From a virus: a stretch of 55,442 nt of DNA. The stretch spans positions 1 to 55,442 of the IMG/VR virus record IMGVR_UViG_3300035661_000078, one strand, 5' to 3'. The position numbers were made by a program, and so were the translations under genes. This document shows positions 2,682 to 47,548 of this stretch, in pieces. The notes under the pieces are model-generated. The model searched no databases. It saw only the letters and a program-made list of their open reading frames with translations, and was not told the origin of the DNA. Position 1 is the stretch's first letter. Each line of letters opens with the position of its first letter.

Positions 2682-2770
2682 AAAAAGGACTTCCCTGGGT
2701 CCATCACACCTTGTTTGCTAGAGAAAGGTCCGCCAATTCTCGGTTTGGGCCAACTCTCAAAGGAGGGGTC

Positions 2771-3373
2771 ATGTGGTGGGCAGCAATCCCCTTGGCCATC
2801 AGCGCCATCAGCGCCATCACGGGCAGTAAGGCCGCCGGAGAGGCCGCCGACCGGGCCGAGTCCTATGTGAACCAGGGCGCGGACCTGCAGAGCAAGAAGC
2901 TGGCCCTGGCCCAGTGGAATCTGGACGACTTCAAGAACAATATCCTGCCTCTGCGGAACAAGATGCTCACGGAGGCCATGAGCGCGGCCCCTACTGCTGC
3001 CTATGGCCGAGAGGCGGGGAGTTTCCAGCGCGGCATGGCCACGGCCCAGGAAAACATTCTGGGTTCGGATACCACTCCGTCCGGGTTGATGGACGCCAAC
3101 CTTGCCGGCCTCGGTATCGCCAAGGCCAAGGGCCTCGCTACCCTTCGGCTTCAGGATGACTCCCGCAAGCTGGATGAGCAGGGCAAGCTCCTCTCGCTCG
3201 GCTACCAGACTCCGGGCGCGGTGAGCGCCATGGGCCAGGCCTATGACGGGAGCACCAACTTCTTCGGGGGCTTGGCCAATAGCTACAACGCCCAGGCCGC
3301 CCAGGGGTATGCCGGCGTTGCAAATGCCCTGGGCGGCATGGCGGAACTCTACGCCAAGTACGGCGGGAAATAG
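2771..3373 (+). CDS. Internal virion (injection) protein, 200 aa
   Basis: An AGGAGG ribosome site lies just before this ATG; an upstream in-frame extension to 2711 has none. The N-terminus is a short membrane-seeking helix (PLAISAISAITG), followed by an Ala/Gly/Gln-rich helical body ending in YAKYGGK. This layout resembles the small ejection proteins of short-tailed phages that line up before a very large ejection protein, and two larger such genes follow directly. Role inferred from order and composition: released with the DNA to form a channel through the cell envelope. Confidence 0.6.
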   Translation: MWWAAIPLAISAISAITGSKAAGEAADRAESYVNQGADLQSKKLALAQWNLDDFKNNILPLRNKMLTEAMSAAPTAAYGREAGSFQRGMATAQENILGSDTTPSGLMDANLAGLGIAKAKGLATLRLQDDSRKLDEQGKLLSLGYQTPGAVSAMGQAYDGSTNFFGGLANSYNAQAAQGYAGVANALGGMAELYAKYGGK

Positions 3374-3381
3374 GAGGGACC

Positions 3382-4896
3382 ATGATTCGCGGAATTGGCA
3401 TGGCGCAAATCGGGGCCGGGTTGATGCAGGGCACCAACCGAGGCCTGGATGAGCGGCGCATGATGGACCGGCAGGACCGGCAGGACGCCATGGTCAGCGA
3501 CGAGTTTCGACGCAGGCAGGCCCTGGAAGCAGGCCAGGATCAGGCCGTCTTCGACAAGTGGGACACCTTCTCCAAGGCCGACCTGGATGGCATCCAGTCC
3601 TACATCCCCGCAGATACCGTCTATACCCCCACCACGGGCGACCATGTGAACCCAGACGGCACCCTCCAGGCGCGACCGGACGTGCCACAGGATTTGCTTG
3701 CGGGCCCGGCGATTCCCGGCGCCCCGGCGCCCGCCCAAGCGGCGTCCGGGAGCCCGGTCAAGAAGGGTCTCGCGATCCCGGGTGGTGTTCCTCAGAAGAT
3801 CCTCAACCGGAACGCCTACTCGGCTCGAAGTATGGCCCTGGGCATCATGGGGCCCAGCTCGGCAATGATGAACACCGCCGATACCGAGGCCGGCTTCGAC
3901 ACCTTCAAGGAGCGCGCCCAGGGGGCCCTCTCCAGCCTTCAGGGACTCAAGAGCCAGATCAGCCAGATCATCGGCGGCCGGGATCCCAACACCATGGACG
4001 CGGCCACCCGCGCCCAGCTGGCATCCCGACTGAAGCCCCTCCTCGATGAGGCCGACTCGCAGACTCGGCTCCTCGCGGATTCCGTCCAGGCAGCGCACAC
4101 CACCAAGGATGCCTCCGAGGCCCGCCACGCCTTCCAACTCCTCGCCACCACGGGCGATCCCGGCCGTGTCGCGGACTTCATGGCCGCCAACGGCGCGCCC
4201 CCCGATACGGTGGCTAGCATGCGCCTGTCCAAGTACGACCCCCAGAGCAACCGGATCATCACCCAGAACGGGACCGTTCTGGATCCCGTCAGTTTTGGGA
4301 TCAGCAACGGCCTGGTGCCCTTGAATCCGAAGGAACAGGCCGACTTCATGATGCGGGCCGCGCAGTTCCAGGAAAAGCTTAGTGCCGCCAAACTGAATGA
4401 GCAACTCCGTGCCGACACGCGGATTCAGGCTGTGCTCAACGCAGGCGGTGCCAAGGCCACAGCCATGCAGCGATACCTGGATACGGTCGATCAGCTGGGC
4501 GCCTTGGAGCGCAACGGCCAGATGGACAGCGACAAGTATCAGCAGCTCCTCCACACCCGCGACCAGATCGCCCTGGCCCTACCTGTCTCCACCGGAGCGG
4601 GAAGGGAAGCCGCCAGGGGGACGCCTGCCGGACAGGAGGACCAACTCCAGCGCGACCTGGATCGGGCCGAGCGAGGCCTTGCCGCGGCGCAACGTGCGGG
4701 CATCGCTGCTGGGAACACCACGGACAAAGGCCTCCAAGCCAAGGCCGATGCCGATTACAGGGCCGCCAAGGCGGCGCGGGACGCCGCCAAGGCCGCCCTC
4801 GATGCCAGCCGGAGTCGCCGGGGCATTGGCCAGGTGGCCCCTGGGGCCGCGCCCGCCACGGCGCCTTCCGCGCCCACGGCCTTCTCTATCAACTAG
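3382..4896 (+). CDS. Internal virion (injection) protein, 504 aa
   Basis: It follows the previous gene by 8 bases with a GGAGG ribosome site. The product is largely alpha-helical and Ala/Gln/Asp-rich. It has a glycine-rich N-terminal hydrophobic stretch (IGMAQIGAGLMQG), a Pro/Ala linker near residues 105-130 and a C-terminal Ala/Lys/Arg coiled-coil-like region ending in a Pro/Ala tail. Being the second of three consecutive genes of rising size before the 3310-residue protein, it fits a middle ejection-complex protein. No catalytic motif is visible. Confidence 0.6.
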   Translation: MIRGIGMAQIGAGLMQGTNRGLDERRMMDRQDRQDAMVSDEFRRRQALEAGQDQAVFDKWDTFSKADLDGIQSYIPADTVYTPTTGDHVNPDGTLQARPDVPQDLLAGPAIPGAPAPAQAASGSPVKKGLAIPGGVPQKILNRNAYSARSMALGIMGPSSAMMNTADTEAGFDTFKERAQGALSSLQGLKSQISQIIGGRDPNTMDAATRAQLASRLKPLLDEADSQTRLLADSVQAAHTTKDASEARHAFQLLATTGDPGRVADFMAANGAPPDTVASMRLSKYDPQSNRIITQNGTVLDPVSFGISNGLVPLNPKEQADFMMRAAQFQEKLSAAKLNEQLRADTRIQAVLNAGGAKATAMQRYLDTVDQLGALERNGQMDSDKYQQLLHTRDQIALALPVSTGAGREAARGTPAGQEDQLQRDLDRAERGLAAAQRAGIAAGNTTDKGLQAKADADYRAAKAARDAAKAALDASRSRRGIGQVAPGAAPATAPSAPTAFSIN

Positions 4897-4905: not shown

Positions 4906-7900
4906 ATGCCGGATCTCTTCGACTTCGACCCGAATCAGGGACCGCTTCGCGTCGCCACCGTCAATGGCTTTGCAGGAGGCACCTTCCAGACGCCCCAGCG
5001 GCTCATGGATGGGGCGATCTGGTTGGATCGGGGCAAGACTGCCGACCCCAATCAGGTCTCAGGCTGGTACAAGTTGGGCAACGATGGTGCGACCTGGCAG
5101 GCGGCCGGGGATCACATTGAGCTCCCCAACGGCCAGGAGGAGCAGTTCGGCCAGGCTAAGACCTTCCGGCGTTCTGATGGTGCGATCTTCCTGCATCCGA
5201 AGTTCTTCGGGGGCGGCCCTGTCGCGGGCGTCCAGAAGCCGGGTTGGTACGAACAGGACGACAAGGGCAACCTCAAACCTGCCCCGGCGGAGGAGAGTTA
5301 TTCCCGTCGGGCCTGGGATGCTGTGGCCGGAACTGTCAAGGGCATCGGCTCTGGGATCGTCAACACCGCCAAGACTGAATTGGGCAAGGTGAGCAACTAC
5401 CTCGCCACGGGTGACAGCGAGACTTCTCCCGATGACGCAATCAAAGCCCAGATCGATGCCTCCTCGGATCCACTGGCGACCGCCCAGCAGATCGCGCAAC
5501 AGGCCCCTCAGATGGGTGGGACCGCCCTGGGCGCCGCGGCCGACGAGGCCCATCGCTTCCTCGTGGGGGCAGGTGAAAAGTTCCTGGGGTGGGGGCAGGC
5601 GGCGGGCGGCCTGGGCCTCAAGGCCATCGGATCCCTGACGGGAGATCCCGCCCTCAAGCGCGAGGCCAGCCAGCTTATCCATGATCCTGTGACCTTCGAC
5701 CACTCGAGGGAAAAGGCCCAGCGCGAGCTGGACCTGGAGGAGACCATCCGCCAGCTGAATGAGCAGAAGCTCACGGCCCAGATGTTGGCCAAGCAGGGGA
5801 GCATCATCGGGGACGCGCAGGGCAATCCCCAGGGCGTCACGGCCGAGGCCCGGGATCTTCTCACGGCCTACACCGCCAACCTCCACAAAGCCGTGGCCCT
5901 GGAACGCCAAGTCGGGCAGGACCGGGCCGTGACTTCCGGCGTGAAGAACTACCTCGCGGGCGCGGGCACCCTGGGCGGAGATACCTTCGACCTGGCAGCC
6001 CAACTGGCGCTCATGGAGGCCACAGGCGGGCTTGGCAACGCCGCCGCCCGTGAGGCCGCCGCAACCACCGCGCAGGCCGGGGCCCTGGCCACAGGCCAGA
6101 AGGCCGCCAGCACCCTTGCTCGGCTGGGACTCTCTGAGGAGCTGGCCGCCAAGGCCGGGAAAACCATCACCCAGGCGCTCACCACGGGTCAGACGGCCAT
6201 CCCCTCCGCCCTGGAGGCTGCCGCCGAGGCCGGAGGCAAGGCTGGTGCCGGACGTCTTCCCCGCATCGCCAACTGGATCGCGGATACGAGCCAGGCCGAG
6301 CAGGCCGGGGCCCTCTCCCGAGGCCTCGCGCATGCGGGCCAGGGCGTGGCCATGAGCCTGCCTGGTGCCGTCCAGGAGTTCACCGACCTCTATGGTGGGA
6401 ACGAAGACCAGGGGGCCCTGGGGGCCCTGTGGAAGGTCATCAAGGAGCAACCCAAAGTGGCGGCCGTCATGGTCCCCATGCTCTCCGAGCGTCTGCGGGC
6501 CATGACCACCCCTTTCGCCCAGACCACCGTGGCTGGCGCCGCCAAGAACGCCGCGGCCCGCACCCTCACCCTAGCGGGCACCTCTACCCTTGCGGACCTC
6601 CTGACCTCCGGGGGTGATCCCCAGGCAATTGGGAACCTGCCCGCCCACATCAAGGGCCTCCTGGGTCTGGAGCTTCTGGGCGCCGCCCGGGGCATTGGCT
6701 CCGCCCGTGAGACGGGCCGCCAGGCGGCCGACACCCGGGCCCTGGCCGAGGACCAGCTTGGCGAAGCAACGAAAGCCCTTCTTCAGGACCGTCCCGCCCT
6801 GGAACAGGTGGAGGCCATCCTCAAGCAGGCGGAGACCGAGGCCACCGGGAACCCCGAGCAACAGGCTCACCTCAAGGATCTGCGCGACGAGCTGGCCGCC
6901 CGTGTGGCCCAGCACGATCAGCGCGCCCAGGCCGCCGCAGAAGCCATCGCCCAGACCGACCAGGTGGCGAATGACCTGGGCGTGAAGCCCGAGGACCTGC
7001 CACGTCCCAAGGCCAGGAAGCTGGCGGATCCCGTGACGAGCATCCTGGGCAAGCCGACCGAACCCATCACCTCGGCTCCTACCCCTGTACCGCCCCCGGC
7101 TTCTGATCCGGTAGCCCGCCACGAGCGCGTGTTGGCCGGTCTGGACGACACCCGAAAGATCCTGGAGCGCCGCATCCTCGATGCCAAGGTGGCCGGGAAA
7201 GACACCACCGCCCTTGAGGACGACCTGGCCCAGACCAAGGCCGACATGCAGGCCCGCCAGGCCGTGGCCGCCGAGGATGCCGCGCCGCCCGCCCCGGCCA
7301 TCGCGTCCCCGGCGCCCGATCCCGCACTCGATCCCATCGCCCGCATGCAGGCCATCTCCGACGCCTTCGACGCGCCGGAGACTGCGAACCGCTGGCCCAA
7401 CCTGGGGCCCAATGAACAGCGGGCAATCTGGCTGGCACACGGCATGGACGACGCCACCAACCGCACCCCGGAAGGCGTGGCTGCCTACCACCTGGCCATG
7501 GACCGGGCCAACCGGAAAATCGAAGGCCGGCGTGGCCCCAGCGGCGATCCGGATCGTTCGGCCATGGATGCCATCGCGGCTCCCCAGATGATCCGCCCCG
7601 CCAAGGGTCTCGCCTCGGACGCCTCGGACGCCTCGGACGCCTCGGCTGCCCGCCCTGCCCTCGCGCCTCCAGACCTGTCCGGCGACACGAACGCCGTCAT
7701 GGACCACCCCGAACTGCGGAAGGCCGGGCTCTGGCAGGGCGTCAAGGGTCTTGCGGAATCCCTCAAGGGAAAGCTGGACAGCGCCATGGCCAAGGTGGCC
7801 GCCCAGAAGATCCTGGCCCGGGCCACAAAGGAGGGGGATGGCGATGCCACCCTGCCGACGAAGGCCCGCATCCTGGCCCAGGCCGCCCTCAAGACCCGGG

Positions 7901-10900
7901 ATCCCCTCAAGGTACTGACCGACCAGCTCGGCACGAGTGACCACCGCGACCTCGTGTTGCAGCTCGGTGAGATCCCCGCGGGCATGGAGGGGCAGGCCCG
8001 GGATGCCGCCGCCATGGACCTCATGTTCCAGGCCATGAAGGATCAGGACTTCGGGGGCAATACCAGCGACTTCCACACGGCCCTCCGAGACGCTTGGCGC
8101 GTCACGGAGAAGAAGCGCAGCGCCAAGGTTGACCCCTGGCAGCTGAAGCCCTTCGCGAATTTCTCGGACCTGGAACGCCATGTGCACCGGCTCACCCGGG
8201 GTCTGGATGCCCGGCTCCAGGCCACGAAGGAAGGCGCTGACACGACCCTCGACACCGTGGAGAAGCACCTCTCCGGCAAGAAGGCCGCCCTGGACCAGCT
8301 GCTTCCCGGCGCGCAGGGGCCAGCGAAGGAGGGCCTTGAGGCTAGAGCCGCCCAGATCCGTGCTCAACTGAGCAGGCTGGGGGCCCTTCGGCAGATCCGC
8401 GCAACTGATCCCGAGAACCTCTCCGGCTTCTCCCGGCGCCTGGGCGCTGAGATCCAGGGCTGGACCGAGGATCTTCGCACGGGCCACCAGCGGGGGCAGT
8501 CCCTTGTGGTCACGGATCCCACGGGCGCCAAGTCGGACGAGTACGAAGCCAGGACTGGAGCCATCCCGGTCGGGAAGGACGAGAACGGAGCACCCAGGAT
8601 GCTCGACACGGGCTTGGTGCACGTCTTCCCAAAGGGGGGCACTCTGCCGCTCCAACGGGGACTGGAAATGCGTGGGATCGTCAACCGGGCAACTCCCAAT
8701 GAGGAGCAACTTCGCGCCCTCTGGGAAGCCGACCACAAGCCAGGCGTCCCAGTCGGCGCCGAATTGCCGGATCGCCCCTTGCTGGTGCCGGGCACCTCAT
8801 TCGATTGGGTGCGCGTGGGCAACAAGATCCTCCCCCGGCCTCGTCCCGTGGCCTACACCGAGGAGAGTTTGGAGGCTGGCGAGAACAATGCCACCCGCAA
8901 CGCCGTCCAGAGTGTCGGGCACTATGACCTGGCTGGCTTCGCCCGACACACCAACGCCATCCTGGACAACGCGGGCCTGGAGCGTCTCCCCTGGCGAGAG
9001 ATCAAGGAGGCCCACGAACGAAACGTCACCCTTCCCGAGAGCCGGGAGGCCGAGGCCCAGCGACTCCGCGCCCAGGGCGCCCTGGTTCCCACCGAGGCTC
9101 ACTGGCGGGCTGGTGCCGCGCAGCGCGCCCCCGAACGCTCCCGGGAGGAGATCGCCCGGGAAGCTGCCAAGGCCGAGGAGACTCGTGCTCGCCTCGGGGA
9201 TCCCACCGTGCCACCCACTCCGGAAGAGATCCAGGCCGCCCGTGACAAGCAGAAGGCCCTGACGCCCACCGACGAACTGACCCGCCGCGAAGCCGCCAAT
9301 GAGCTTCGGCGCCTGGGGCCTGGGGCCCTGGCGCTCGCTCCTGACGCTCTGCTCCAGCGGATCCATGATCTTGGTGCTCAACCCATGGATGAGGAAACAA
9401 GGGGCGCCAACCAACTCATCCACGGGGAAACCGTGTTGAGCCACAGCGAATACCGGGCCCTCCTGGACTTTCTGGATAAGGACTTCTTCAACGACCGAAG
9501 CCAGGCCTGGAAGGAGAAGGCTCCCAACCGGGCAGGCGTCAGCGATTCCCTGGCGCGAGCCGCGGGCGTGGACCAGACGGACCTGTCCTCTCCGGCGCGG
9601 CGCGCCGCCGAGATCGAGGCCAGTTCCTTCGACAATCGGCGCGGAGCCGAGGTGTTGGCCGAGAAGAAGGCCGACGCCGACCGGCGCCGGGCCGTGCAGC
9701 TCCGCACCGCGAGCCGGGCCCTGGATCGTCTGCTCAAGGCGGGCATCCTGACCGGCGACGACTTCCTGCTCCCTGGCGCCAAGCCCCATGAGACGAGCCA
9801 GGGCGAGGATGGCGGGATCATCACCCATCGCAACGCAGAGTTCCGGCGCACCGTGCTGGACGCCCTGAATGACGTGGCCGACCTGGACCCCAGGGCCGGC
9901 GACATTGCTAGCGAGCTCTATGCCAAGGTCCAAGAGACCCGTGACACCCAGGGCGATGCGATCCCCGCGGGCCATTCTCCCGACACGAGCTTCTACCGCC
10001 GCGGGGGACGCTGGATCCCCAACCCGGAAAGTGTTGAATCGGAGCCGCTCTTCGATCATCGTCCGGCCGTAGCCGACATGAACCAGGCCACGGGCGCCGA
10101 ACGGAACAGCCTGCTGCACGCCCTGGGACAGAACCCCCACGTCCGTGCCAGCACCCAGCGCATGATGGCCCACGAGCAACTCATGGCCTTCGCGGATCAA
10201 GTCCGCCATGGCGCCACCTTCAAGGACTACCCGGAAGACCTCCGCACCAAGATCGCGGATCATCTGGAAACGAAGGCCGAGGGCCTCGTACATGAGGGGG
10301 ATTGGGCCCTGCGGGATCACCTGGAGAACCAGGGGCAGAGCTACTTCAAGCCCATCATGGAACCCCGGTCCCCCAATGAGGGTCAGCGAACCCTGCTGCG
10401 CGATGAGGACGCGGCGGCCCTGCTGAACCAGAACCACCCGCGCCACGAAGAAGTGCTCCACTGGTTCAACGGGGAGGAAGCGCCGGCCAACCGCTTCGCC
10501 GGGCTGCAGGAGATCCCCGATACCCAAGAGACCCCCGAACAGCGCATCCTCCAGACCCACCTCATCAAGGTGAATCCCACCGTGGATCCCGCCGTTGCCG
10601 TCAAGCAACTGGTGAACGACGCCATGACCTCCATTGGTGAGCTGAACACGACTGCGGACGTGACTGCTCGCGTCTCCCGCTGGGAGAAGTCTGCCGAACC
10701 CCTCCTCCAGGAGCGGGCGGCTACCTGGCACCGCAATCGAGACACCGTGCGGACCATGACGGCCAACGATCCCGAGCTCACGCGCCGGATCCTGGAGATC
10801 ACCGACCGCATGGACCCGGCTCTCTTCTCTGGCCTGACCATCGCCCCCGGCAACGCGGAGGGGAAGATGGGCACCTTCCACTTCGGGAAGAACCTCCTGG

Positions 10901-13900
10901 AATTGCAGACCGGCTTCCAGAACGCCGTGGCCACCCGGGCCACGGAAAAGGCCACGAGCACCTTCTTCCATGAGATGAGCCACTTCCTTTCGACCTGGAT
11001 GGATCCGGCCTTCCGGAGCCGCATCCAGCTGGCCTATGACGACCATGTGACCAAGATGACCCAGGAGGATCCCTTCCTTCGGGCCCTCTTCGGTGAGGGA
11101 AGCCCTGTGCATTGGCAGGGCCTCGATGCTGCCCAGCTCGAGGGCGAGAAGGCCACGTACCTGACGGAAGGCGACCGCGCCGCCCTGGAGAAGCGCCTCC
11201 GCGACATCCCTGGGGAACTGGATTACCTCCGGATGGAAAGCGGCAGCTCTGACCGGATTCTGAACCAGCTCTTCCGCCCGCTGGGGAAGGAGGAGGCCAA
11301 GGATGGCTTCCGTTACGCCCTGGACCTGCGTGAGATCAGCAAGAAAAGCGAGAACTTCCAGCGGTACTATCGCTTCCTGAATCCGGACGAGTGGTTTGCC
11401 GAGACCTTCGGAAACTTCACCCAGATGGCCTTTGGGGGCAACGCCTTCCAGAACGCCAGGGCCCGCTTCCAGGATCTGGTGGGCAACGACCAGCTCCAGA
11501 CCACGAGCGACATGCTGGCGGCCGTGAAGATGGTCCAGGCCATTGCCCCGGGCGAGCGTGGTCCGAGCGGCAGTCAACGACTTCGGGTACTGGGCGATGC
11601 GGTGAAGCTCATGCAGAACCGCGAGGCCCCTGGAATCGGCCGGTCCACCCAGATGAACCGCCCCCTCAGCCGTCCCTTGAGTCCCGTCCCCCGAGAGAAA
11701 CAGGCCCAGGCCCAGGCCGACCTTGAGAACGTGCGGGAAGACGGGCCCACAGCCCGACAGGCCAATGGCCTGCGCGATGGCCTGGACGACGTGGAGCGCC
11801 AGCTCTTCGCGCTGGCCCACCGGGCCGGAAAGGTAGTCGAGCGCCCCATCTCGAAACTCGTGGAACTCATCGCCAGCGATGCCCTCTCTCCGGCCTCCCG
11901 AAATTACAGCCATGTCCTCACCGAGATCCATGCGAAGGCTGGCGCCACCCGGGCCTATGACGAGGTGAAGGCCAACGAGGCCCGCCGAGCTATTGATGCC
12001 GCCTTCCGCCGGGAGAACTCGGATGCCTTCTTCCGGAGCGCCGAGGACCTGGTGAAGGCGGGACGCGCTACCGAGATCAGCAGCATCCAGAACCGTCAGG
12101 GAGTGCGGCTCTTCAAGGGAAAGATCGGGGAGGAACCCATCTGGATCAATACCAACCGGGGCGGGAAGGTACTCCAGGTGATGACCGACCGGCAGATGGA
12201 CGCCTATCGCTTCGTGGAATCCAATGGGGCCAGGGGAGGCCGCCTCCTGACTCCGGAACTTCGGGACCACCTGGCGGCTTGGCTCGAGACGAAGAAAGCC
12301 ATGGATCAGGAGCGAAAGGCTGATTTCCTCTCCATCCCCGGTGTGGACCAGAACCTCGCGGACTCCATGTGGGTAAACGATTACCTGCCCCACCTCTATC
12401 CCCGGTCGGGCTCGGGCCGCACCTTGGACCGGATCCTCGAGGAGCGCGACACAATCGCCAATCTGGATCGCTTCCAACGTCGCGTCTTCCAGGACTATGA
12501 CCACGCCCTGCGGGCGGGCGGCCTGCTCCCGCGGTTGTCGAACCCCGTGGACACCTACCTTCTGGGGGCCCGGGAATCCCAGCGCGCCATGGACCTTCGC
12601 CGCCTCCTCTCCTACATGGAGGAGCGGGGCCTGGCCCACTATGGCTATCGGGACGACCATCCGGACTACAAACGCCTGGAACTGGGCCCCAACGGCAGCT
12701 TGGCCATGAAGCGCCTGGGCTACCACCAGGAGGAACCCCTCGATCCCGGGCAGGAACCCATCAAGGCGCCCCAGAAGGACCTCTGGGTGCATCCAGAATT
12801 GGAGCCTCTGGTTCGGGCAGGCTTCGACTATGGCCTGGCGAAGACCCCCTTTGGCGCGCTGTACCGCACGGCCATGCTGGCGAATCATGTCCTGGCTCCG
12901 GCGAAGCTCACGCTCTCGGGATTCCACCTGGGCACCATTACGAAGCTCGGCGGCGTAGAGGCCATGCGTTCCGCCTATGCCAACTATTCCCGCCTGCGGG
13001 ACATGGGAGTGGATCACGGGGAGGCCCTCACCCGCAGTCTCGACGGGCTGGCTTCCCAGGCGGGCATCAAGGGCGCGCTGGACGAGGGGAAGCGCATGCG
13101 CGACCTCTTCGTGGAGCACGGCCGGAAGTCGGCAGAACAACTGGCCGACCTCAATCTGCCCGCCATGGACAAGGCCAAGATCCTCCTCCTGCGGGCGGGT
13201 GGCTACTCGCCCATGCTGGCCCCGGCACGGGAAAGCATGGAGCGCGAGGCGCTCGCCCAGGCCCTCTCCGAGGGCAAGGTGGCCAAGACGGTCTGGAAGA
13301 GCTACACGGGCCTGATGGAGTCCGTGCAAGACGCCTTGATGAACCACACCATCGCCCCCATCAAGACCGGCCACATCACCCTGGACATGGAACGCATGCT
13401 CCGGGCGAAGTACGGCGAGAATCCCGACCTTGAGAAACTCACCCAGGATCTCTATGCGGGCGCTGACAAGGCCATGCCGGGGCCCTACACCACCACCGAG
13501 CTCGGAGAGTACGCGCGGCAACTGACCGCGCATGCGGACAACGTGTTCGGCATGGTGAACTACAAGAACCTGATGATGCACCCGGTCCTGAAGGACCTGA
13601 TGCACCTGTGGAATCTCAGCTTCGGCTGGCGCCTGGGCACCATGCGAATCATGGGCAAGGCCGTGGATCAGGGCCTGAACGCAACCCCCGTGGTTGGGGC
13701 GGCCTACCGAGGCCTGAAGCGAGGCATGGGCGGAACCGGCATCCACGAGGCGGTAGAAGGTCGGGCCCCCCTGCAGTTCATGGCCGCGCATGGCATGGCC
13801 GACATGCTCACCACGCTGGCCCTGGGCGCCCTGGGCGCGGCGCAGTTCCCCAACTGGCGGAAGAAGAAGGACGAGCAGGGCAACCCCATCGAGGAACCCT

Positions 13901-14838
13901 TCGACTACCAGGCCTTCCGGGGACGGCTGGAGGACCTGGTGTTCCCGGCCCTCTCTGATCGGCTGAACCACAACAGCCTGCAGAACCGCTTCTCGCTGGG
14001 CTACGCCTACGACTTCTGGGATGCCCTGAAGAATCCCCGCGAATGGGCCACCGGGCACACCGCGGGCAACAGCCCGCTCACCCAGATCGCGGCCGAGGCC
14101 ATCACCGGCAAGGACGCCATCGGCAACGAGATCGGCAACCCCTACGACTACACCCCCGTTCTGCCCCAGGAATGGGCGCAGAAGATCGCCACCTGGATGG
14201 CCAATCCTGACTCCAGCGCCTTCCTTGTGGGCGCGGCCCAGCGGGCCCTGCAAGTTCCGAAGGAGTTCCTCCCGATCAGCCTCACCAACGGCTACCGCCT
14301 GGCAAAGGACGGGGAGAATCCTCTCGTGGCGCTGGGCACCTTCGGCGGCCTGCGAAAGGTTCCCGACTTCAAGGGCTTCGGGCAGTCGGACGCCACCCAG
14401 GCCTCCATGGAACTACTCAAAAAGGGGGCCCAGAACCAGCCGAAGACCGCCGACAAGCAGGCCGACAAGAACCTGCGGGACCAGGCTGTGGCCGCCGCCC
14501 TGAACCAACGGGACGCGGATCAGCTGGATCCTCTGGTGGGCAATGGCTACAAGGCGGAGGGCGTGAAGCGGCTGAAGAATGAGCTCTTCGCCCAGCTCGG
14601 CGGGAAGGGCGAGGACGTGCCCCGCGAAGCGGGAGAGCGGTTCTTCCTGCGGGCCCGCTTCGAGGATCGCCTGGCCATCCTGCAGCTGGCGCGCAAGGAC
14701 GAGTTCCAGCGACTCTGGCCCATCTTCGAGAAGGGCGCAGCCAAGGGGCTGCGGGATTTGAAGGACAAGGATCCTGTTTCGGCTCAGATGGCCCAGGACC
14801 GCATTGACCGCCTCAAGACGAAGTGGGGTCTCGAATGA
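4906..14838 (+). CDS. Giant internal virion / polyvalent protein with zincin motif (3310 aa)
   Basis: This is the largest gene, about a fifth of the window. The N-terminus (1-120) is beta-like and the next about 700 residues are Ala-rich helices. A zinc-protease signature lies at residues 2022-2026 (HEMSH, in FFHEMSHFLSTW), with a candidate third ligand in DEWFAETFGN near 2160. The C-terminal third carries the WVNDYLPHLYPR and WNLSFGWRLG type segments I associate with large polyvalent phage proteins. I looked for phage N4-type RNA polymerase motifs and a lytic transglycosylase site and saw neither. The likely role is ejection into the host with the DNA, the protease acting on the envelope or on host proteins. 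Its stop overlaps the holin-like start (ATGA). Confidence 0.7.
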   Translation: MPDLFDFDPNQGPLRVATVNGFAGGTFQTPQRLMDGAIWLDRGKTADPNQVSGWYKLGNDGATWQAAGDHIELPNGQEEQFGQAKTFRRSDGAIFLHPKFFGGGPVAGVQKPGWYEQDDKGNLKPAPAEESYSRRAWDAVAGTVKGIGSGIVNTAKTELGKVSNYLATGDSETSPDDAIKAQIDASSDPLATAQQIAQQAPQMGGTALGAAADEAHRFLVGAGEKFLGWGQAAGGLGLKAIGSLTGDPALKREASQLIHDPVTFDHSREKAQRELDLEETIRQLNEQKLTAQMLAKQGSIIGDAQGNPQGVTAEARDLLTAYTANLHKAVALERQVGQDRAVTSGVKNYLAGAGTLGGDTFDLAAQLALMEATGGLGNAAAREAAATTAQAGALATGQKAASTLARLGLSEELAAKAGKTITQALTTGQTAIPSALEAAAEAGGKAGAGRLPRIANWIADTSQAEQAGALSRGLAHAGQGVAMSLPGAVQEFTDLYGGNEDQGALGALWKVIKEQPKVAAVMVPMLSERLRAMTTPFAQTTVAGAAKNAAARTLTLAGTSTLADLLTSGGDPQAIGNLPAHIKGLLGLELLGAARGIGSARETGRQAADTRALAEDQLGEATKALLQDRPALEQVEAILKQAETEATGNPEQQAHLKDLRDELAARVAQHDQRAQAAAEAIAQTDQVANDLGVKPEDLPRPKARKLADPVTSILGKPTEPITSAPTPVPPPASDPVARHERVLAGLDDTRKILERRILDAKVAGKDTTALEDDLAQTKADMQARQAVAAEDAAPPAPAIASPAPDPALDPIARMQAISDAFDAPETANRWPNLGPNEQRAIWLAHGMDDATNRTPEGVAAYHLAMDRANRKIEGRRGPSGDPDRSAMDAIAAPQMIRPAKGLASDASDASDASAARPALAPPDLSGDTNAVMDHPELRKAGLWQGVKGLAESLKGKLDSAMAKVAAQKILARATKEGDGDATLPTKARILAQAALKTRDPLKVLTDQLGTSDHRDLVLQLGEIPAGMEGQARDAAAMDLMFQAMKDQDFGGNTSDFHTALRDAWRVTEKKRSAKVDPWQLKPFANFSDLERHVHRLTRGLDARLQATKEGADTTLDTVEKHLSGKKAALDQLLPGAQGPAKEGLEARAAQIRAQLSRLGALRQIRATDPENLSGFSRRLGAEIQGWTEDLRTGHQRGQSLVVTDPTGAKSDEYEARTGAIPVGKDENGAPRMLDTGLVHVFPKGGTLPLQRGLEMRGIVNRATPNEEQLRALWEADHKPGVPVGAELPDRPLLVPGTSFDWVRVGNKILPRPRPVAYTEESLEAGENNATRNAVQSVGHYDLAGFARHTNAILDNAGLERLPWREIKEAHERNVTLPESREAEAQRLRAQGALVPTEAHWRAGAAQRAPERSREEIAREAAKAEETRARLGDPTVPPTPEEIQAARDKQKALTPTDELTRREAANELRRLGPGALALAPDALLQRIHDLGAQPMDEETRGANQLIHGETVLSHSEYRALLDFLDKDFFNDRSQAWKEKAPNRAGVSDSLARAAGVDQTDLSSPARRAAEIEASSFDNRRGAEVLAEKKADADRRRAVQLRTASRALDRLLKAGILTGDDFLLPGAKPHETSQGEDGGIITHRNAEFRRTVLDALNDVADLDPRAGDIASELYAKVQETRDTQGDAIPAGHSPDTSFYRRGGRWIPNPESVESEPLFDHRPAVADMNQATGAERNSLLHALGQNPHVRASTQRMMAHEQLMAFADQVRHGATFKDYPEDLRTKIADHLETKAEGLVHEGDWALRDHLENQGQSYFKPIMEPRSPNEGQRTLLRDEDAAALLNQNHPRHEEVLHWFNGEEAPANRFAGLQEIPDTQETPEQRILQTHLIKVNPTVDPAVAVKQLVNDAMTSIGELNTTADVTARVSRWEKSAEPLLQERAATWHRNRDTVRTMTANDPELTRRILEITDRMDPALFSGLTIAPGNAEGKMGTFHFGKNLLELQTGFQNAVATRATEKATSTFFHEMSHFLSTWMDPAFRSRIQLAYDDHVTKMTQEDPFLRALFGEGSPVHWQGLDAAQLEGEKATYLTEGDRAALEKRLRDIPGELDYLRMESGSSDRILNQLFRPLGKEEAKDGFRYALDLREISKKSENFQRYYRFLNPDEWFAETFGNFTQMAFGGNAFQNARARFQDLVGNDQLQTTSDMLAAVKMVQAIAPGERGPSGSQRLRVLGDAVKLMQNREAPGIGRSTQMNRPLSRPLSPVPREKQAQAQADLENVREDGPTARQANGLRDGLDDVERQLFALAHRAGKVVERPISKLVELIASDALSPASRNYSHVLTEIHAKAGATRAYDEVKANEARRAIDAAFRRENSDAFFRSAEDLVKAGRATEISSIQNRQGVRLFKGKIGEEPIWINTNRGGKVLQVMTDRQMDAYRFVESNGARGGRLLTPELRDHLAAWLETKKAMDQERKADFLSIPGVDQNLADSMWVNDYLPHLYPRSGSGRTLDRILEERDTIANLDRFQRRVFQDYDHALRAGGLLPRLSNPVDTYLLGARESQRAMDLRRLLSYMEERGLAHYGYRDDHPDYKRLELGPNGSLAMKRLGYHQEEPLDPGQEPIKAPQKDLWVHPELEPLVRAGFDYGLAKTPFGALYRTAMLANHVLAPAKLTLSGFHLGTITKLGGVEAMRSAYANYSRLRDMGVDHGEALTRSLDGLASQAGIKGALDEGKRMRDLFVEHGRKSAEQLADLNLPAMDKAKILLLRAGGYSPMLAPARESMEREALAQALSEGKVAKTVWKSYTGLMESVQDALMNHTIAPIKTGHITLDMERMLRAKYGENPDLEKLTQDLYAGADKAMPGPYTTTELGEYARQLTAHADNVFGMVNYKNLMMHPVLKDLMHLWNLSFGWRLGTMRIMGKAVDQGLNATPVVGAAYRGLKRGMGGTGIHEAVEGRAPLQFMAAHGMADMLTTLALGALGAAQFPNWRKKKDEQGNPIEEPFDYQAFRGRLEDLVFPALSDRLNHNSLQNRFSLGYAYDFWDALKNPREWATGHTAGNSPLTQIAAEAITGKDAIGNEIGNPYDYTPVLPQEWAQKIATWMANPDSSAFLVGAAQRALQVPKEFLPISLTNGYRLAKDGENPLVALGTFGGLRKVPDFKGFGQSDATQASMELLKKGAQNQPKTADKQADKNLRDQAVAAALNQRDADQLDPLVGNGYKAEGVKRLKNELFAQLGGKGEDVPREAGERFFLRARFEDRLAILQLARKDEFQRLWPIFEKGAAKGLRDLKDKDPVSAQMAQDRIDRLKTKWGLE
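7612..7647 (+). repeat. In-frame 9-bp tandem repeat (Ala-Ser-Asp)
   Basis: The 9-base unit gcctcggac occurs three times in a row, followed by a fourth diverged copy, and encodes ASDASDASDAS. It sits in a flexible Pro/Ala-rich linker of the giant virion protein and could vary in length by slippage without breaking the frame. Confidence 0.8.
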
Positions 14839-15086
14839 GTGAAACATCCCAGCATGGCGAAGGCTTCCTCTGCGACAACGAGGGCAACCGCAGCACGGGG
14901 CGGGCCCTGGCCTGGCTCTGCGTTTTCGGGGCCCTTGCGTTCTTCTGGGCTGGCTACGTCCGGCCGGCGACCACCGCGGACCACGCTTACAAGTGTGGCG
15001 CGGCCCTGCTGGTAGCGGCGGCCGTCTTCTACAACGGAGGCAAGGGCCTCGAAAAGATCGAAGCAATCTGGGGGAGGGGACAATGA
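14835..15086 (+). CDS. Holin-like membrane protein (83 aa)
   Basis: It starts at an ATG overlapping the stop of the giant gene (ATGA); a GTG 12 bases earlier is possible but less likely. Two hydrophobic helices are predicted by eye, about residues 24-42 (LAWLCVFGALAFFWAGY) and 53-67 (KCGAALLVAAAVFYNGG), joined by a short loop and ending in a charged tail. Size and topology fit a two-TM (class II) holin. Its stop overlaps the next gene, which also has terminal membrane helices, suggesting a second lysis pair separate from the endolysin locus near 1.7 kb. Confidence 0.6.
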   Translation: MSETSQHGEGFLCDNEGNRSTGRALAWLCVFGALAFFWAGYVRPATTADHAYKCGAALLVAAAVFYNGGKGLEKIEAIWGRGQ

Positions 15087-15631
15087 TCCCGCGGTTTTGG
15101 AAACCCCTGTTGGCCCTGGGGGTCCTCGTCGTCGTGGGCCTCTGGGCCTGGGACTTCTTCGGCCCCGGGGCTACACGGCGCCAGGCCTTGAAGCAGGCGG
15201 AGCTGCACGACAAGACGGCCGAAGCCGCGAAGATGGACGCTCGGAGGGAGGGCGAGAAGGGCGATGCCATCGCGGATCAGATTGACCGACGCAGCCTTCC
15301 CATCCAGGAGAAGGCGGAGGCGGTTCTCGCGGCGGCCCCCGTGGTCGAGGCCCAGGCCCAGCTTCACCTGGTTACGCCGGAGGCGTTGGCCCTGGCGCGG
15401 GATGCGAGGGATCTGGCCAACCTGGTGTTGACCCAGGAGCGGGACATTCAAGCCCTGGAGGCCTCCCGGCAGGCCATGGCCGCGCATTACGAGATCGCCC
15501 TGGGCGAGAAGGACCAGGAAATTGCCATCCTCAAGATCGAGGCCAAGAAGCCACGGCTTACCCTGCCTCGGGCGGTGGGTCTCGTGGGACTAGGCGCGGT
15601 GCTGGCCCGGGGCCTGACCCTGCTGTTCTAG
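15083..15631 (+). CDS. Membrane-anchored coiled-coil protein, possible spanin-like (182 aa)
   Basis: A strong purine-rich ribosome site (gggggagggga) precedes this ATG. There is an N-terminal hydrophobic helix (about residues 9-25, LALGVLVVVGLWAW), then a long charged helical region rich in Ala, Gln, Glu and Lys, and a second short hydrophobic C-terminus (VGLVGLGAVLARGLTLLF). It follows a holin-like gene, so an Rz-type inner-membrane spanin is one reading, but the C-terminal hydrophobic segment is unusual for Rz and no outer-membrane lipoprotein partner was found. Its 3' end overlaps the convergent nuclease gene by 4 bases. Confidence 0.5.
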   Translation: MIPRFWKPLLALGVLVVVGLWAWDFFGPGATRRQALKQAELHDKTAEAAKMDARREGEKGDAIADQIDRRSLPIQEKAEAVLAAAPVVEAQAQLHLVTPEALALARDARDLANLVLTQERDIQALEASRQAMAAHYEIALGEKDQEIAILKIEAKKPRLTLPRAVGLVGLGAVLARGLTLLF

Positions 15632-16629: not shown

Positions 16630-16701
16630 TGCGGGGTAGCTCAATGGCAGAGCGCCGGTTTCATACGCCGGAGGTTGTGGGTTCAAGTCCCACCCCCGCC
16701 A
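16630..16701 (+). tRNA. tRNA with anticodon CAT (Met or Ile2)
   Basis: All arms are recognisable: D stem GCTC/GAGC with a GG-containing loop, anticodon stem CCGGT/GCCGG with loop TTCATAC (CAT at 16662-16664), T stem GTGGG/CCCAC with loop TTCAAGT. The acceptor stem pairs positions 2-7 perfectly but base 1 (T) faces C, an unpaired end as in initiator tRNAs. The D-stem C11-G24 pair, however, is of the elongator type. No complete CCA end is encoded. Identity as elongator Met or lysidine-modified Ile2 cannot be settled by eye. Confidence 0.85.
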
Positions 16702-16737
16702 CCCCTCCCCAGGGCAGGAATCAGCGGAAGCCCAGTC

Positions 16738-22383: not shown

Positions 22384-22409
22384 CGGAGTTTCCTTCTTGG
22401 TGGTTCGGG

Positions 22410-22496
22410 TCATGGGTTCGATCCGTGGAGTTGGGTTGGGTGTCTCTCAATCACTGTTCCGCGCTTATCGAAGATGATGAATTTCGTGTTTCTCGT
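22410..22496 (-). CDS. Possible tiny ORF with ACG start (28 aa)
   Basis: An AAAAGGAG site is followed 4 bases later not by ATG but by ACG, opening a 28-codon frame (TRNTKFIIFDKRGTVIERH...) that ends in ATGA overlapping an upstream possible start of the pentapeptide gene. It could be a decayed cassette leader or a rare non-AUG start. Weakly supported. Confidence 0.2.
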   Translation of the reverse strand, partial: TRNTKFIIFDKRGTVIERHPTQLHGSNP

Positions 22497-38915: not shown

Positions 38916-38970
38916 GGAACCCCTCGATGCTGGCCCAGGCATGGCCCGGGAAATGGATGGGCAGGGAGGA

Positions 38971-39007
38971 TCATCCCCTCCCCTCAAGCGAAGCGGGGGA
39001 GGGGTGA
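38971..39007. repeat. 37-bp palindromic repeat, copy 2
   Basis: Identical to 38114-38150, about 857 bases away. It lies just upstream of the first leftward early gene. Confidence 0.7.
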
Positions 39008-40847: not shown

Positions 40848-40999
40848 GGCCCCTGCAGGACAACCACCGGGCCGCATGGTTGGCTCAGGAGCGGCGAAGG
40901 AAGCAGCGGATCCTCTTCCTGGTGGAGATGACGGCCCTTTGGCTGGGCACGACCTGGTTCCTCTTCGTGGGGCTGTTGCTTCTCGGGGGTGCCCGGTGA
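40844..40999 (+). CDS. Small membrane protein (51 aa, TTG start)
   Basis: A TTG overlaps the small-terminase stop (TTGA) behind GAGGCGG. A basic start (WLAQERRRKQR) precedes one hydrophobic helix (TALWLGTTWFLFVGLLLLGG). Its stop overlaps the large-terminase GTG. Supported by tight packing only. Confidence 0.4.
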   Translation: MRPLQDNHRAAWLAQERRRKQRILFLVEMTALWLGTTWFLFVGLLLLGGAR

Positions 41000-42444
41000 G
41001 CATCGAGATTCTCCAGGAGACCGTGGAGGCCATGGCGGAACTGGAGCGCCGACGGGAGGACCAGGCCCTCGTTTATTGGCCCACGATCTACCCCTCCCAG
41101 AAGGACGCATGCCAGAGCTCCCATCAGATCACCGCGCTTTTCGGGGCGAACCAGGCGGGAAAATCCGTCACCGGCCTGCGGCGCATGGCCTGGGATCTGA
41201 CGGGCATCTACCCCGAATGGTATGAGGGCCCCCGCACCCTGACGGCCATCAATGCCTGGATCGTGGGTGAGACCTCGGACTTGACCCGAGACGGCCTGCA
41301 GAAGAAGCTCCTGGGACCAGACCTGTACAACCCCGGCAAGGGCGGCATCCTCTCCCGACGCTACCTGAAATCGAAGCCCGTGTACAAGCAGAACGGCGGT
41401 GGGGCCATCGACTACTTCCTGGTGCCCCATGTGTCCGGTGGCACGTCAGCCTGTGCCTTCAAGAACTACGCCCAGGGCCGCGTCGGCCTCCAGTCCGCCA
41501 CCATCCAGCGCCTCCTGATTGACGAGGAGCCACCCTGGGAGGAGTGGCAGGAATTGATGATGCGTATTTCGGAGGCCGCCGAGAAGGGGGACGGCTACAC
41601 GACAATCTGCTTCACCCCCCTGAAGGGCAAGACGAAGGTGGTCAAGACCCTCTGGGAAGACAACCCGGACGTGGGTGTGTTCCTCTTGTCGGCCGAGGAG
41701 GCGACCCACCTGGGCCCAGGCCACATCGAGAAGTGGAAGCGGCTCCTCAAGAACGACCCGGCCGCCCTCAAGGCGCGCCTCTATGGCCTGCCGGATGTGA
41801 ACACAGGCCTCGTCTGGAACGCGAATTGGAGCGAGTTCCGAATCCCTCGGTTCGAGATCCCCCCAGCCTGGCCCCGCCTTGGCGCCATTGACTACGGCTG
41901 GACGCATCCCACATGCCTCGTGATCCTGGCCAAGGATCCCCGCACGGACGATGTGTTCGTGGAGCGAGCCTGGCGTTTCACCGAGACGAAGTACTGGCAG
42001 ATCGTCAAGATCATGCGGCCCTGGTGGGAGAAGGGGATCCAGTTCTTCGGGGATCCCTCTGCGGAACAGCCAGACCGAGCCAATGGCGAGAAGCTCCTGC
42101 ACACGTATCTGAATGACCTGCATCCAGGCTGGGAATCCGTCCCCCCCGAGGAGCGCGCCATCGTGAACGCTCCCCGGACGCCCCAGATCCGCAACGACAT
42201 GGTGCAGAAGCGCCTGGATGAAGGAACCCTCTGGTTCTTCGATGACCTGGACCCCGTGCTTTTCGAGGAGGTCCAGGGCTACGCCTACACGAAGAAGGGG
42301 AAGCTGCCCGAAGTGAACGACGACTACCCCGACACGCTGGGCTACGGAATCCAAATGCTCTCCCGCGCTCGCCCGCCCTCCGCTTTCCGCCGCCCGGTTG
42401 TCGTTAAGACCTTCCACCTCAAGACCTGCATGAAGGGGTTCTAG
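40996..42444 (+). CDS. Terminase large subunit (482 aa, GTG start)
   Basis: It is the ATP-driven packaging motor and nuclease. Walker A GANQAGKSVT (50-59), Walker B RLLIDEEPPWEEW, and RNase H-like nuclease acidic sites AIDYGWTHPT and FFGDPSAEQ are visible. The GTG at 40996 overlaps the previous stop and gives the normal N-terminus; the frame continues upstream to 40876 without a ribosome site. Confidence 0.92.
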   Translation: MSIEILQETVEAMAELERRREDQALVYWPTIYPSQKDACQSSHQITALFGANQAGKSVTGLRRMAWDLTGIYPEWYEGPRTLTAINAWIVGETSDLTRDGLQKKLLGPDLYNPGKGGILSRRYLKSKPVYKQNGGGAIDYFLVPHVSGGTSACAFKNYAQGRVGLQSATIQRLLIDEEPPWEEWQELMMRISEAAEKGDGYTTICFTPLKGKTKVVKTLWEDNPDVGVFLLSAEEATHLGPGHIEKWKRLLKNDPAALKARLYGLPDVNTGLVWNANWSEFRIPRFEIPPAWPRLGAIDYGWTHPTCLVILAKDPRTDDVFVERAWRFTETKYWQIVKIMRPWWEKGIQFFGDPSAEQPDRANGEKLLHTYLNDLHPGWESVPPEERAIVNAPRTPQIRNDMVQKRLDEGTLWFFDDLDPVLFEEVQGYAYTKKGKLPEVNDDYPDTLGYGIQMLSRARPPSAFRRPVVVKTFHLKTCMKGF

Positions 42445-42446: not shown

Positions 42447-44657
42447 ATGCTTGTTCAAATCCGACCCGGGAAACCCGACATTCTCCTGGCCCCCCAGGCT
42501 CCCAAGGTGGAAGCACCCCAGGCGGACCCAACCCTCGTCCTGCTCTCCCGCGCCCCGGGCCTCGCCGGCTTCGTGGAGGAGGAGTTCGCCTTTTTCAAGA
42601 CCTGCATGACGCCCCTGCATAAGCGGTGGGTGCGCTTCAGGCGGCACTTCCTGGGCATCTATGGCGAGGAGTTCACGGCCCAGGAAGGCCAGTCGGACCT
42701 GTTCATCAAGCGAACCCGAGAGCGCGTGAGCACGGCCTTCACCAAGCTGATGAAGCTGATCCTGCCCATGGTGGGCGATCCCTGGGATCTTCGCGTCAGC
42801 CCCAGGCCCCAGAACCCCTTCGGAACCGATCCCAAACAAGCCGTGGCTGGGATGCGCCAGGCGATCCGGGATCACCTGGCCAACATGCAGTTCAACAAGA
42901 CCCTGCGTTATGTGGTCTGGGATGAGTGCCTCTTCGGAACTGGCATCACCTACGGCCCCGTAGGCGTGACCGACCCCAATCCGGCATGGGCCCGAATCCG
43001 CGGCATCACCCTTCCACAGGAGGTTCGCCCCGACATTCAGCATGTTCCAATCTGGGAGCTCTATACCGACCCCATGGTGGCCAAGAAGGAGCGGGTAGCC
43101 TCTGCGATCTGGCGCCGCGTCCTGAACCGGAAGCAGCTGGTGGAGTTGGGTCGCGTCCAGGGATTCGACCCCACGCAGATTGACCTTCTTCTCCAGGCCT
43201 TGCCGAAGGGGAACTACGTCCGCGAGTACTGGGAAACCGAGCTGGCATTCCAAACGCCCAAGGAACCCCGCTGGGCGGTGTACGAGCGGTGGGGTCTCGT
43301 GGACCAGGACAAGCAGGAGGAATGGGGCCTCGACGAGACGACCACGGGCTTCGTCTCCAGCTGGACCTGCGGCCCCTTCACGCTGGCGCTCTTCGTGGAT
43401 CCCATGTATGAGCACGAGCTTCCGTTCGACTGGATCCCCTATGAACAGGCGGACGGGTCAATCTATGGCTCCGGCGTGGCTGAGCACGTAGAAGACATTC
43501 AGATCATGGAGAATGCCCTGGGCCGGGCTCTCCACAACAACCTGGCGGACTCCTCGATTCCCCAGGTGGAACTGGACATGACCCAGCTGGATCCCGGGAC
43601 CGACCCCCGCTGGAAAGCCGGGAAGACCTGGCTGAAGCGTCCGAACGAACTGGCCAAGGGCATGCGGGCGGTGGACTTCTACCTCCCCCCCAACAATTCC
43701 GGCCAGATCCTGCAGGCCTGGCAGCTCTTCGAGAGCCTGATGCCGGTGGTGTCCAGCATGCCGGTGGTGGAGAACCCGGGCGCCATGGGCAGCGGGGTAC
43801 GGACGGACGGCATGCAAACCCGGGCCTACTCCACAGCCGAAGGGTTCATCCGGAATGTGGTGGGGAACAACGATGAGTTCGGTTGGGTGGTCTGGATCGG
43901 CCGCCTCTTCAACTGGGAAATGGGGTACGGGAAGGACGACTCCGTGAAGGGCGACCTGCAGCCGGTGGCCTTGGGCGTCTATGGTGCGGTGCGGCGGGAA
44001 CAGATTGCACAGAACGCTGGCCTCCTGCGGCAACTCGCGGGAGACCCAGAGCTGGCGCCCTACCTAAACAACCCCAAGATCCTCTATGACATTCTTCCTG
44101 CCCTGGGCCTGGAGGACGAGGGGTACGTGTTGAGCCCAGACCAGGTGGCCGCGAAGATGCAGCTGGAGAGCCAGCACGAAGCCATGAAGGCCGGCATGAC
44201 CACCCTGGCTGAACAAGCCGTGAGCCACGGCATCCGAGCCAGCGCCAGCCGCGCCGATGCGCTTCTCACCATCCTCCGATCCATCAAGGACGACAGCAAC
44301 CCTGCATGGGGTCCCACCTTCCAGCAGGCCATGGAGGCGCAAGGCGCCATGACGCCGGCGATCTACATCGCCCTTCAGGCCTGGGCCCTGAACATGCAGG
44401 CCGACGTGCTGGCCAAGGGTGGGGCCGGCATGGGCCAGGAGTGGTCTGCCGTGATGCAGAGCTTCCACCCACAAAAGATCCTCGACCTGGACCCCGACTA
44501 CCGTCCCCGCGGGGCCAACATGGCCCTGCCCGGTCAGGACGGCCAGCCCGCCCTTGGAATGGGGCCTCAATCCGATGGAGCGAGTCCGAACGAGAAGCCC
44601 GAAACCCAAACCCTCGCTCCGGATGCCACCCGGCTTTCGGGCCAGGAAGGAGAATAG
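42447..44657 (+). CDS. Portal protein (736 aa)
   Basis: Directly follows the terminase, at the usual position of the head-tail connector. Length suits large podovirus portals. Features: an N-terminal helical region with RTRERVSTAFTKLMKLILPM, DECLFGTGITYGPVGV, a central WIPYEQADGSIYGSGVAEHVE, and a long helical C-terminal barrel-like region ending in a polar tail. It forms the dodecameric ring for packaging and ejection. Confidence 0.85.
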   Translation: MLVQIRPGKPDILLAPQAPKVEAPQADPTLVLLSRAPGLAGFVEEEFAFFKTCMTPLHKRWVRFRRHFLGIYGEEFTAQEGQSDLFIKRTRERVSTAFTKLMKLILPMVGDPWDLRVSPRPQNPFGTDPKQAVAGMRQAIRDHLANMQFNKTLRYVVWDECLFGTGITYGPVGVTDPNPAWARIRGITLPQEVRPDIQHVPIWELYTDPMVAKKERVASAIWRRVLNRKQLVELGRVQGFDPTQIDLLLQALPKGNYVREYWETELAFQTPKEPRWAVYERWGLVDQDKQEEWGLDETTTGFVSSWTCGPFTLALFVDPMYEHELPFDWIPYEQADGSIYGSGVAEHVEDIQIMENALGRALHNNLADSSIPQVELDMTQLDPGTDPRWKAGKTWLKRPNELAKGMRAVDFYLPPNNSGQILQAWQLFESLMPVVSSMPVVENPGAMGSGVRTDGMQTRAYSTAEGFIRNVVGNNDEFGWVVWIGRLFNWEMGYGKDDSVKGDLQPVALGVYGAVRREQIAQNAGLLRQLAGDPELAPYLNNPKILYDILPALGLEDEGYVLSPDQVAAKMQLESQHEAMKAGMTTLAEQAVSHGIRASASRADALLTILRSIKDDSNPAWGPTFQQAMEAQGAMTPAIYIALQAWALNMQADVLAKGGAGMGQEWSAVMQSFHPQKILDLDPDYRPRGANMALPGQDGQPALGMGPQSDGASPNEKPETQTLAPDATRLSGQEGE

Positions 44658-46633: not shown

Positions 46634-47548
46634 ATGACGATTGCACGCACGAATCCCGCCTCTCTCTTGAATCAGGATTCTTGGATCGAGGAGGTCTGGG
46701 ACGGGATGTTCCTCGAGCGTTGGTACGCCGAGAGCCCCCTGCCCCGAATCACCAACACCCGCACCCTGGACAAGATCAAGAACGTCGGCCAGATCATCAA
46801 CTTCCGCATCGAGCCCGAAGCCACGGTTGTCCCGCACATCAAGGACCAGCCTATCGCCTGGCAGTCCATGAAGGGCGACAAACGGCAGATCAGCGTGGAC
46901 TTCGCGTACAGCGCGGCCCACCGGCTCGACAGGATGGACAAGGCCCAGCTGGGCAGCCTGCCCGTGATGCAGCGCATCGCAGACAGCATCACAAAGAAGC
47001 ATGCAGAGAAGGAGGCTGAGGTCTTCTTCAACGTCATGCCCTTGATGACGATGAACCCCCTCAACATGATCGACCTCACCGGAACCGGCGCCATCACGGG
47101 CACCCGGGGTTCTGCGACCTACGCCATCGCGCAGATCGCCAAGCTCCGCACCGCCTTCAACCGGCGCCGCGCCCCCAAGAAGGGCCGCTTCCTGGTGGTC
47201 CCGCCCGAGGTGGAGGAGATCCTGATTCAGTCCGATCAGGCCACCTTCTCCATCAATGGCGAGGGCAACAAGAAGGCCATCGAGGATGGTGAGTGGGGCG
47301 TCAAGGTCTGCGGCTTCGACATCGTTGTGTCGGAGTTCGTCCCCGGCGATGGCCTCTCCACTGCCTCCGCCTTCAAGTGCCTGGCCGGCTTCAACGGCGC
47401 CATCGGCTTCGGTCGCCAGGTCACGGAAATGGAGTCCGGCATCAAGCTGCAGGACTACTACGGCGACGGTATCCGCGCCCTGAACACCTTCGGCTTCGGC
47501 CCGCTCTACCCGGATGGCATCGGCCTCTGGACCTGCAAGATCGCCTAG
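46634..47548 (+). CDS. Major capsid protein (304 aa)
   Basis: Follows the head decoration gene and scaffold. MTIARTNPASLLNQDSW, INFRIEPEATVVPHIKD, KAEKEAEVFFNVM-like long helix (AEKEAEVFFNV) and VKVCGFDIVVSEFVPGDG are consistent with an HK97-type coat monomer. A very stable GC hairpin follows the stop, as expected for a highly expressed gene. Assigned by order, size and look. Confidence 0.8.
   Translation: MTIARTNPASLLNQDSWIEEVWDGMFLERWYAESPLPRITNTRTLDKIKNVGQIINFRIEPEATVVPHIKDQPIAWQSMKGDKRQISVDFAYSAAHRLDRMDKAQLGSLPVMQRIADSITKKHAEKEAEVFFNVMPLMTMNPLNMIDLTGTGAITGTRGSATYAIAQIAKLRTAFNRRRAPKKGRFLVVPPEVEEILIQSDQATFSINGEGNKKAIEDGEWGVKVCGFDIVVSEFVPGDGLSTASAFKCLAGFNGAIGFGRQVTEMESGIKLQDYYGDGIRALNTFGFGPLYPDGIGLWTCKIA

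Follow-up and report, generated by a model that had tools for sequence, protein, structure and literature searches.

The locus analyzed here raises the question of what a podovirus uses a single gene of about 10 kb for. Giant ejected proteins rank among the largest phage proteins and, to our knowledge, few of them have a tested function. The window, i.e., the whole stretch of DNA that was analyzed, is a podovirus DNA record of 55,442 bp, which is probably near-complete. The giant gene (4906..14838, plus strand) accounts for 18% of the phage genome and encodes a polyvalent-type protein of 3310 aa, referred to here as P0001. The ORF starts with ATG, ends with TGA, and contains no internal stops, and the earlier sequence-only reading of it as one intact gene was confirmed. 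The GC content by codon position was coding-like along the entire ORF (0.73-0.88 at the third position), which indicates that an 1818-aa ORF on the opposite strand is a shadow. Searches of Pfam, PHROG, and NCBIfam gave no match above noise; Pfam DUF6581 and other weak matches (E 0.02-2) were taken as noise. The PDB sequences gave no match either. Exact-peptide searches revealed no relatives, whether of the complete protein or of the region around HEMSH, tblastn of phage records found none, and a homologue of the complete chain was not found in these searches. A transmembrane scan gave a single weak segment (residues 2958-2977).

Judged by its portal, the window phage is an HMO-2011-like podovirus, and a deeply divergent one. 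The portal gene (42447..44657, phrog_332) is of the HMO-2011 type, and its product shows 25-29% identity with those of the best relatives, CRP-212, phiM6, and HMO-2011. The genes coding for the terminase large subunit (40876..42444, phrog_2), the major capsid protein (46634..47548, phrog_267), and an 892-aa protein whose PHROG is named internal virion protein (51356..54034, phrog_511, E 9e-19) lie, like the portal gene, on the plus strand, the same as the giant gene. The late-gene order suggests that the ends of the record can be joined; the giant gene would then close the structural block as its last large gene. Ahead of it are a lysozyme-like (endolysin-like) gene (1702-2214, phrog_894) and two genes for cysteine-free proteins. 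The first of these (2711..3373, plus strand) encodes 220 aa and, from its position only, may be a further ejection protein. The second (3382..4896, plus strand) encodes 504 aa, lies directly 5′ of the giant gene with a 9-bp gap, and is a probable partner ejection protein in an N4 gp51-like position. Another cysteine-free candidate partner is encoded among the late genes at 50439-51347. This gene adjoins the one at 49634-50434, and each weakly matches the other's counterpart in L002 (E ~1e-3); the two are possibly tandem paralogues.

The window phage resembles the HMO-2011-type podoviruses CRP-212 and phiM6 in portal, capsid, and gene order, and also in that the last structural genes of those phages (935-1155 aa) have zero Cys. 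However, CRP-212 and phiM6 end in these separate proteins, which lack HExxH, whereas the window phage has one gene for 3310 aa and an integrase. The presence of the tyrosine integrase gene (19540-20721, plus strand, phrog_1, E 5e-63) and of a tRNA-Met(cat) gene (16630-16703, plus strand), which overlaps the start of a MazG ORF, indicates that the phage is probably temperate, in contrast to the lytic HMO-2011 phages. The giant protein was not encoded in the HMO-2011-like contigs searched, and the one nearly identical contig in IMG/VR stops short of the giant gene. Two ORFs on the minus strand were also noted: a repeat-rich one (21655-22413), which has numerous PHROG matches and lies at a local minimum of GC content (0.57), and a Cys-rich one (38649-39485), which has 14 Cys among its 278 residues and may bind zinc.

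Most of the chain had been described as having no nameable domain. This was overturned for the last ~800 residues, which form a conserved domain of polyvalent giants (residues ~2489-3283, 12370..14754, plus strand) detected by HMM, blastp, and BFVD searches. Its core is the motif KDL-x8-GW-x-LGT-x-R (13591..13646), found by a pattern scan; VNYKNL...KDL-x8-GWRLGT was suspected of belonging to a motif that recurs in large phage proteins. The fixed-spacing pattern occurred in 39 viral contigs, always within long ORFs of a single family, which reads WDSVDNRMGQLVYDNLFWN..KDL........GWNLGT.REL at this place. Since sequences picked by the motif cannot serve as evidence for it, the motif of P0001 was masked in the profile test. 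The masked protein scored 34.3 bits over residues 2489-2839, versus -7.5 bits for the reversed sequence. Pairwise blastp within the 39-sequence set gave E values down to 2e-13, and with the window row left out of the HMM, P0001 still reached 119 bits, in two stretches (residues 2489-2920 and 3110-3283). Viral contigs and six bacterial genomes or MAGs contributed further loci with this domain. The homology extends to about 78 distinct giant proteins of about 1,000 to 3,968 aa, where the domain sits near the C-terminus. The domain has no Pfam model; PF18857 (LPD38) gave no match in the window or in seven relatives, and the control was equally silent. An AlphaFold model of residues 1945-3144 was mostly helical, and a large share of its C-terminal part had a pLDDT of 70-85. 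Nothing in the PDB matched this model. Its best matches in BFVD were fragments of giant phage proteins, including entries named 'Large polyvalent protein associated domain-containing' (E to 2e-9).

The relatives place the protein in a known class. Pfam analysis of 18 of the giants revealed ddrB-ParB, LPD5, LPD1, ART-PolyVal, MuF_C, SLT, Kinase-PolyVal, Zeta toxin, and sigma-70 region domains, among others, and one relative of 3,181 aa combines an N6 methylase with an SNF2 helicase. Such domains are diagnostic of polyvalent proteins (PMC5512222). Since the C-terminal domain is common to carriers of these domains, P0001 belongs with the phage polyvalent proteins, and by this homology the class gains a new member. 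The portal family of the window phage was present in the contigs of 11 of 31 relatives. Like phage-type polyvalent proteins, P0001 is giant, encoded among late genes, and has a zincin and the common C-terminal domain. Unlike the established ones, it has about 1,900 N-terminal residues without a recognizable effector domain. The zincin and the C-terminal domain are the domains recognized in it; in residues 1-1900, the family-library searches recognized no known effector domain, so that several activities in one chain are conjectural for P0001. This part would be the cargo or part of a channel.

The second domain is the zincin, which is the commonest domain in phage-type polyvalent proteins (Iyer et al. 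2017, PMC5512222). HEMSH at residues 2022-2026 (10969..10983) and WFAE at residues 2163-2166, both reported previously, were confirmed. HEMSH occurs once and is the sole HExxH of P0001 (0.11 expected from composition). Among the 78 relatives with the common C-terminal domain, we counted 40 HExxH sites versus 2.4 expected, and control motifs such as HQxxH occurred 1-9 times. The search for the downstream ligand used the pattern P-x-EWFAE-x-F alone and yielded 66 independent proteins, 58 of which carry an HExxH in the same ORF, 30-250 residues ahead of the pattern. One of the pattern matches, L340, is likewise a giant, with a single cysteine in 2,729 aa. The Smith-Waterman score of a second pattern match, L393, against P0001 residues 1962-2168 was 105, and shuffled sequences gave 33.8 ± 5.8 (z 12). 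Profile A5 scored 28 bits on this domain of P0001 and matched solved M34-type zincins, e.g., Pro-Pro endopeptidase, with E values of 1e-7 to 1e-4; among the PDB chains, the zincin profile also matched the catalytic domain of a toxin, which indicates the fold class only. These comparisons show homology between residues 1962-2190 and a phage gluzincin domain (gluzincin-like domain of P0001: residues ~1962-2192, 10789..11481, plus strand), and P0001 probably has a zinc protease domain, for which we infer zinc binding and proteolysis.

In the 31-row alignment, from which rows without an upstream HExxH had been excluded, residues H2022, E2023, H2026, Y2155, P2160, E2162, E2166, and F2168 are invariant; the H, E, H, and Y lie outside the search pattern. 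The segment YRFLNPDEWFAE (11368..11403, plus strand) contains Y2155, the probable catalytic tyrosine, and the third-ligand helix with E2162 and E2166. The zinc ligand of the M34 group is the Glu seven residues past the Tyr, which points to E2162 rather than E2166. WFAE had been named as a plausible downstream ligand, but the more likely third ligand is E2162, just before this motif, rather than its own E2166. H2022 and H2026 are the other predicted ligands, and E2023 is the predicted general base. The domain resembles M34/ATLF-like gluzincins (clostridial PPEP/Zmp1) in HExxH, the downstream Glu helix, and the Tyr seven residues before the Glu; it differs from them in lying within a giant phage protein, in having ~140 residues between the motifs owing to an insert, and in lacking a secretion signal. 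P0001 gave no match to Pfam PF18818 (MPTase-PolyVal) at E<=10, and by sequence its zincin is of a different clade.

Zincins occur at several positions among the relatives. A separate HEIGH-type zincin is inserted within the conserved C-terminal domain, ~340-390 residues ahead of the KDL motif, in L085, L093, L111, L114, L122, and others. A second clade (ADLSTFLHESGHFFLE, third helix HE.FARGFE) was found in nearly Cys-free giant phage proteins (L209-L288). The clade STFLHE..HFFLE was rejected as evidence, as its profile match to P0001 was gone once the selecting motif was masked.

Structure prediction gave a divided answer to the check that had been proposed. In the AF2 model of the zincin region (pLDDT 66), the HEMSH and EWFAE helices were predicted at pLDDT 70-86, and the sheet, at below 50, was not predicted. 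A Foldseek search with this only partly confident model returned no zincin and no PDB fold match. The protease site is backed by sequence homology to gluzincins, but AlphaFold did not confirm the zincin fold. HEMSH and WFAE might then be a chance pair of motifs in a non-zincin helical protein, as the AlphaFold models of this region are mostly helices, without a sheet or a zincin match. Against this stand the similarity to L393 over the whole domain (z 12) and the linkage of the two motifs in 58 of the 66 proteins, and we regard coincidence as highly improbable.

P0001 has no Cys in 3310 aa, and 29.6 are expected from the other coding sequences of the phage. Among relatives longer than 1,000 aa, 47 of 65 have zero Cys; among control ORFs from the same loci (700 aa or longer) the figure is 24 of 121 (Fisher p 5e-12; the relatives are not fully independent). 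Controls have a median of 7-9 Cys per 1000 residues. Trp and His are not depleted. Cysteine is also absent from 63 of 74 giants bearing the other zincin clade. In phiM6 and CRP-212, the replication proteins have 14-25 Cys per 1000; the large structural proteins L003 gp25, gp28, and gp30 and L004 gp19, gp20, gp23, and gp26 of these phages have none. The same holds for each of N4 gp50, gp51, and gp52. Absence of Cys in N4-like vRNAPs was noted earlier and tied to entry (PMC2784036), and the paper on polyvalent proteins does not mention cysteine (PMC5512222). The absence in P0001, its relatives, and N4 vRNAP fits threading through the tail.

The closest anatomical parallel is gp50, the virion RNA polymerase of N4 (Schitoviridae), which is an ejected protein. 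It has 3500 aa, versus 3310 in P0001, zero Cys, and a single HExxH at 2228 (2022 in P0001), which in both proteins is followed by a C-terminal part that is large and helical and has no structural homologues. Both genes are the last structural gene beside Cys-free partner genes: the gp50-gp51-gp52 cassette in N4, and the 220- and 504-aa genes followed by the giant gene in the window. For the N4 chain of ~3,500 aa, with an HExxH domain and then a large helical domain, beads-on-a-string passage through the tail, aided by two smaller ejection proteins, was proposed (PMC12633501). However, P0001 has no RNA polymerase: no T7-like polymerase domain was matched in Pfam or PHROG, blastp to N4 gp50 was not significant, and an N4-type polymerase identity was rejected. 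C-terminal homology, suggested by the C1-C2-like layout, was also rejected, as hhalign with the N4-type C-terminal domain gave a probability below 1%. The common anatomy without the polymerase indicates that P0001 would be an ejected carrier like gp50 and no vRNAP. The earlier designation as an injection protein thus gained indirect support from the late-gene position, the domain shared with polyvalent proteins, the absence of Cys, and the N4-like layout.

N4 also offers another view of the zincin. Its vRNAP is packaged unprocessed despite the HExxH domain, and its C-terminal region is required for encapsidation (PMC5512222) and autoinhibits the polymerase (PMC12633501). The fold in P0001 could likewise be kept for structure or assembly without any proteolysis that matters, which may also be the case for the HExxH-bearing C1 domain of N4 vRNAP. 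In purely structural use, E2023 and Y2155 would drift, yet both are invariant, and P0001 retains the full catalytic set H, E, H, Y, and E, which does not vary across the 31 rows; we consider this explanation quite unlikely.

Both domains of P0001 have homologues, its active-site residues are intact, cysteine is absent, and the gene is in a late position. We infer that the podovirus carries the protein in its head and ejects it through the tail into the host, either together with the DNA or before it. The conserved C-terminal ~800 residues would act as a virion or translocation module common to many giant phage proteins, and the middle domain as a gluzincin with ligands H2022, H2026, and E2162, base E2023, and Y2155. 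This protease would most likely cut P0001 itself, either within the head or once the protein has been delivered, freeing the cargo from the C-terminal module. We find it fairly probable that P0001 is such a packaged and ejected polyprotein, processed by its own zincin during assembly or entry. Auto-processing is the role proposed for the zincins of polyvalent proteins, with the processing of phage P1 DdrB cited (PMC5512222), and this argument and example are why we favor it. The main caution is that N4 vRNAP is packaged unprocessed, which means that autoproteolysis is not general; the low-confidence zincin model and the absence of a PDB fold match also speak against it.

Cleavage of host proteins, which had been suggested as well, is possible but is not the favored role. 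The zincin would then be an entry effector acting on host defence or regulatory proteins, its own chain not being the substrate. Zincins act as effectors in other conflict systems, this role was proposed for polyvalent proteins, and the solved structures nearest to the profile belong to secreted endopeptidases of the M34 group, which are substrate-specific. On the other hand, no target is known, the domain lies between cargo and C-terminal module, as expected of a processing enzyme, and the relatives carry zincins at several positions; an effector seems unlikely. The other suggested role was opening a path through the cell envelope. The gene does lie among ejection genes, but gluzincins of this type cut proteins, neither glycan nor lipid, and the same cluster has the separate lysozyme-like gene (1702-2214) and a spanin-like gene (14993-15631). 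Profile searches gave no match of P0001 to SLT/transglycosylase or another hydrolase, unlike the T7 gp16-like internal virion protein D, which has a transglycosylase domain; that function may lie in gene 1702-2214. We regard an envelope-opening protease as very unlikely.

With self-processing of an ejected polyprotein as the preferred reading, P0001 connects the polyvalent class with an HMO-2011-like podovirus lineage that is probably temperate, and it defines a full predicted zincin active site. Dozens of polyvalent proteins now join the N4-like RNA polymerases, for which the absence of Cys had so far been noted. We tentatively suggest, at somewhat less than even confidence, that the C-terminal module, shared by podovirus giant proteins, is a general packaging and translocation tag for cargoes of widely differing types and that the near-total loss of Cys is a class-wide constraint of the tail channel. 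Under such a constraint, ejected proteins would be recognizable from sequence alone. If this is true, P0001 is a case with cargo of an unfamiliar kind, and if the absence of Cys marks tail passage generally, it would allow a simple listing of ejected effectors in uncultured phages.
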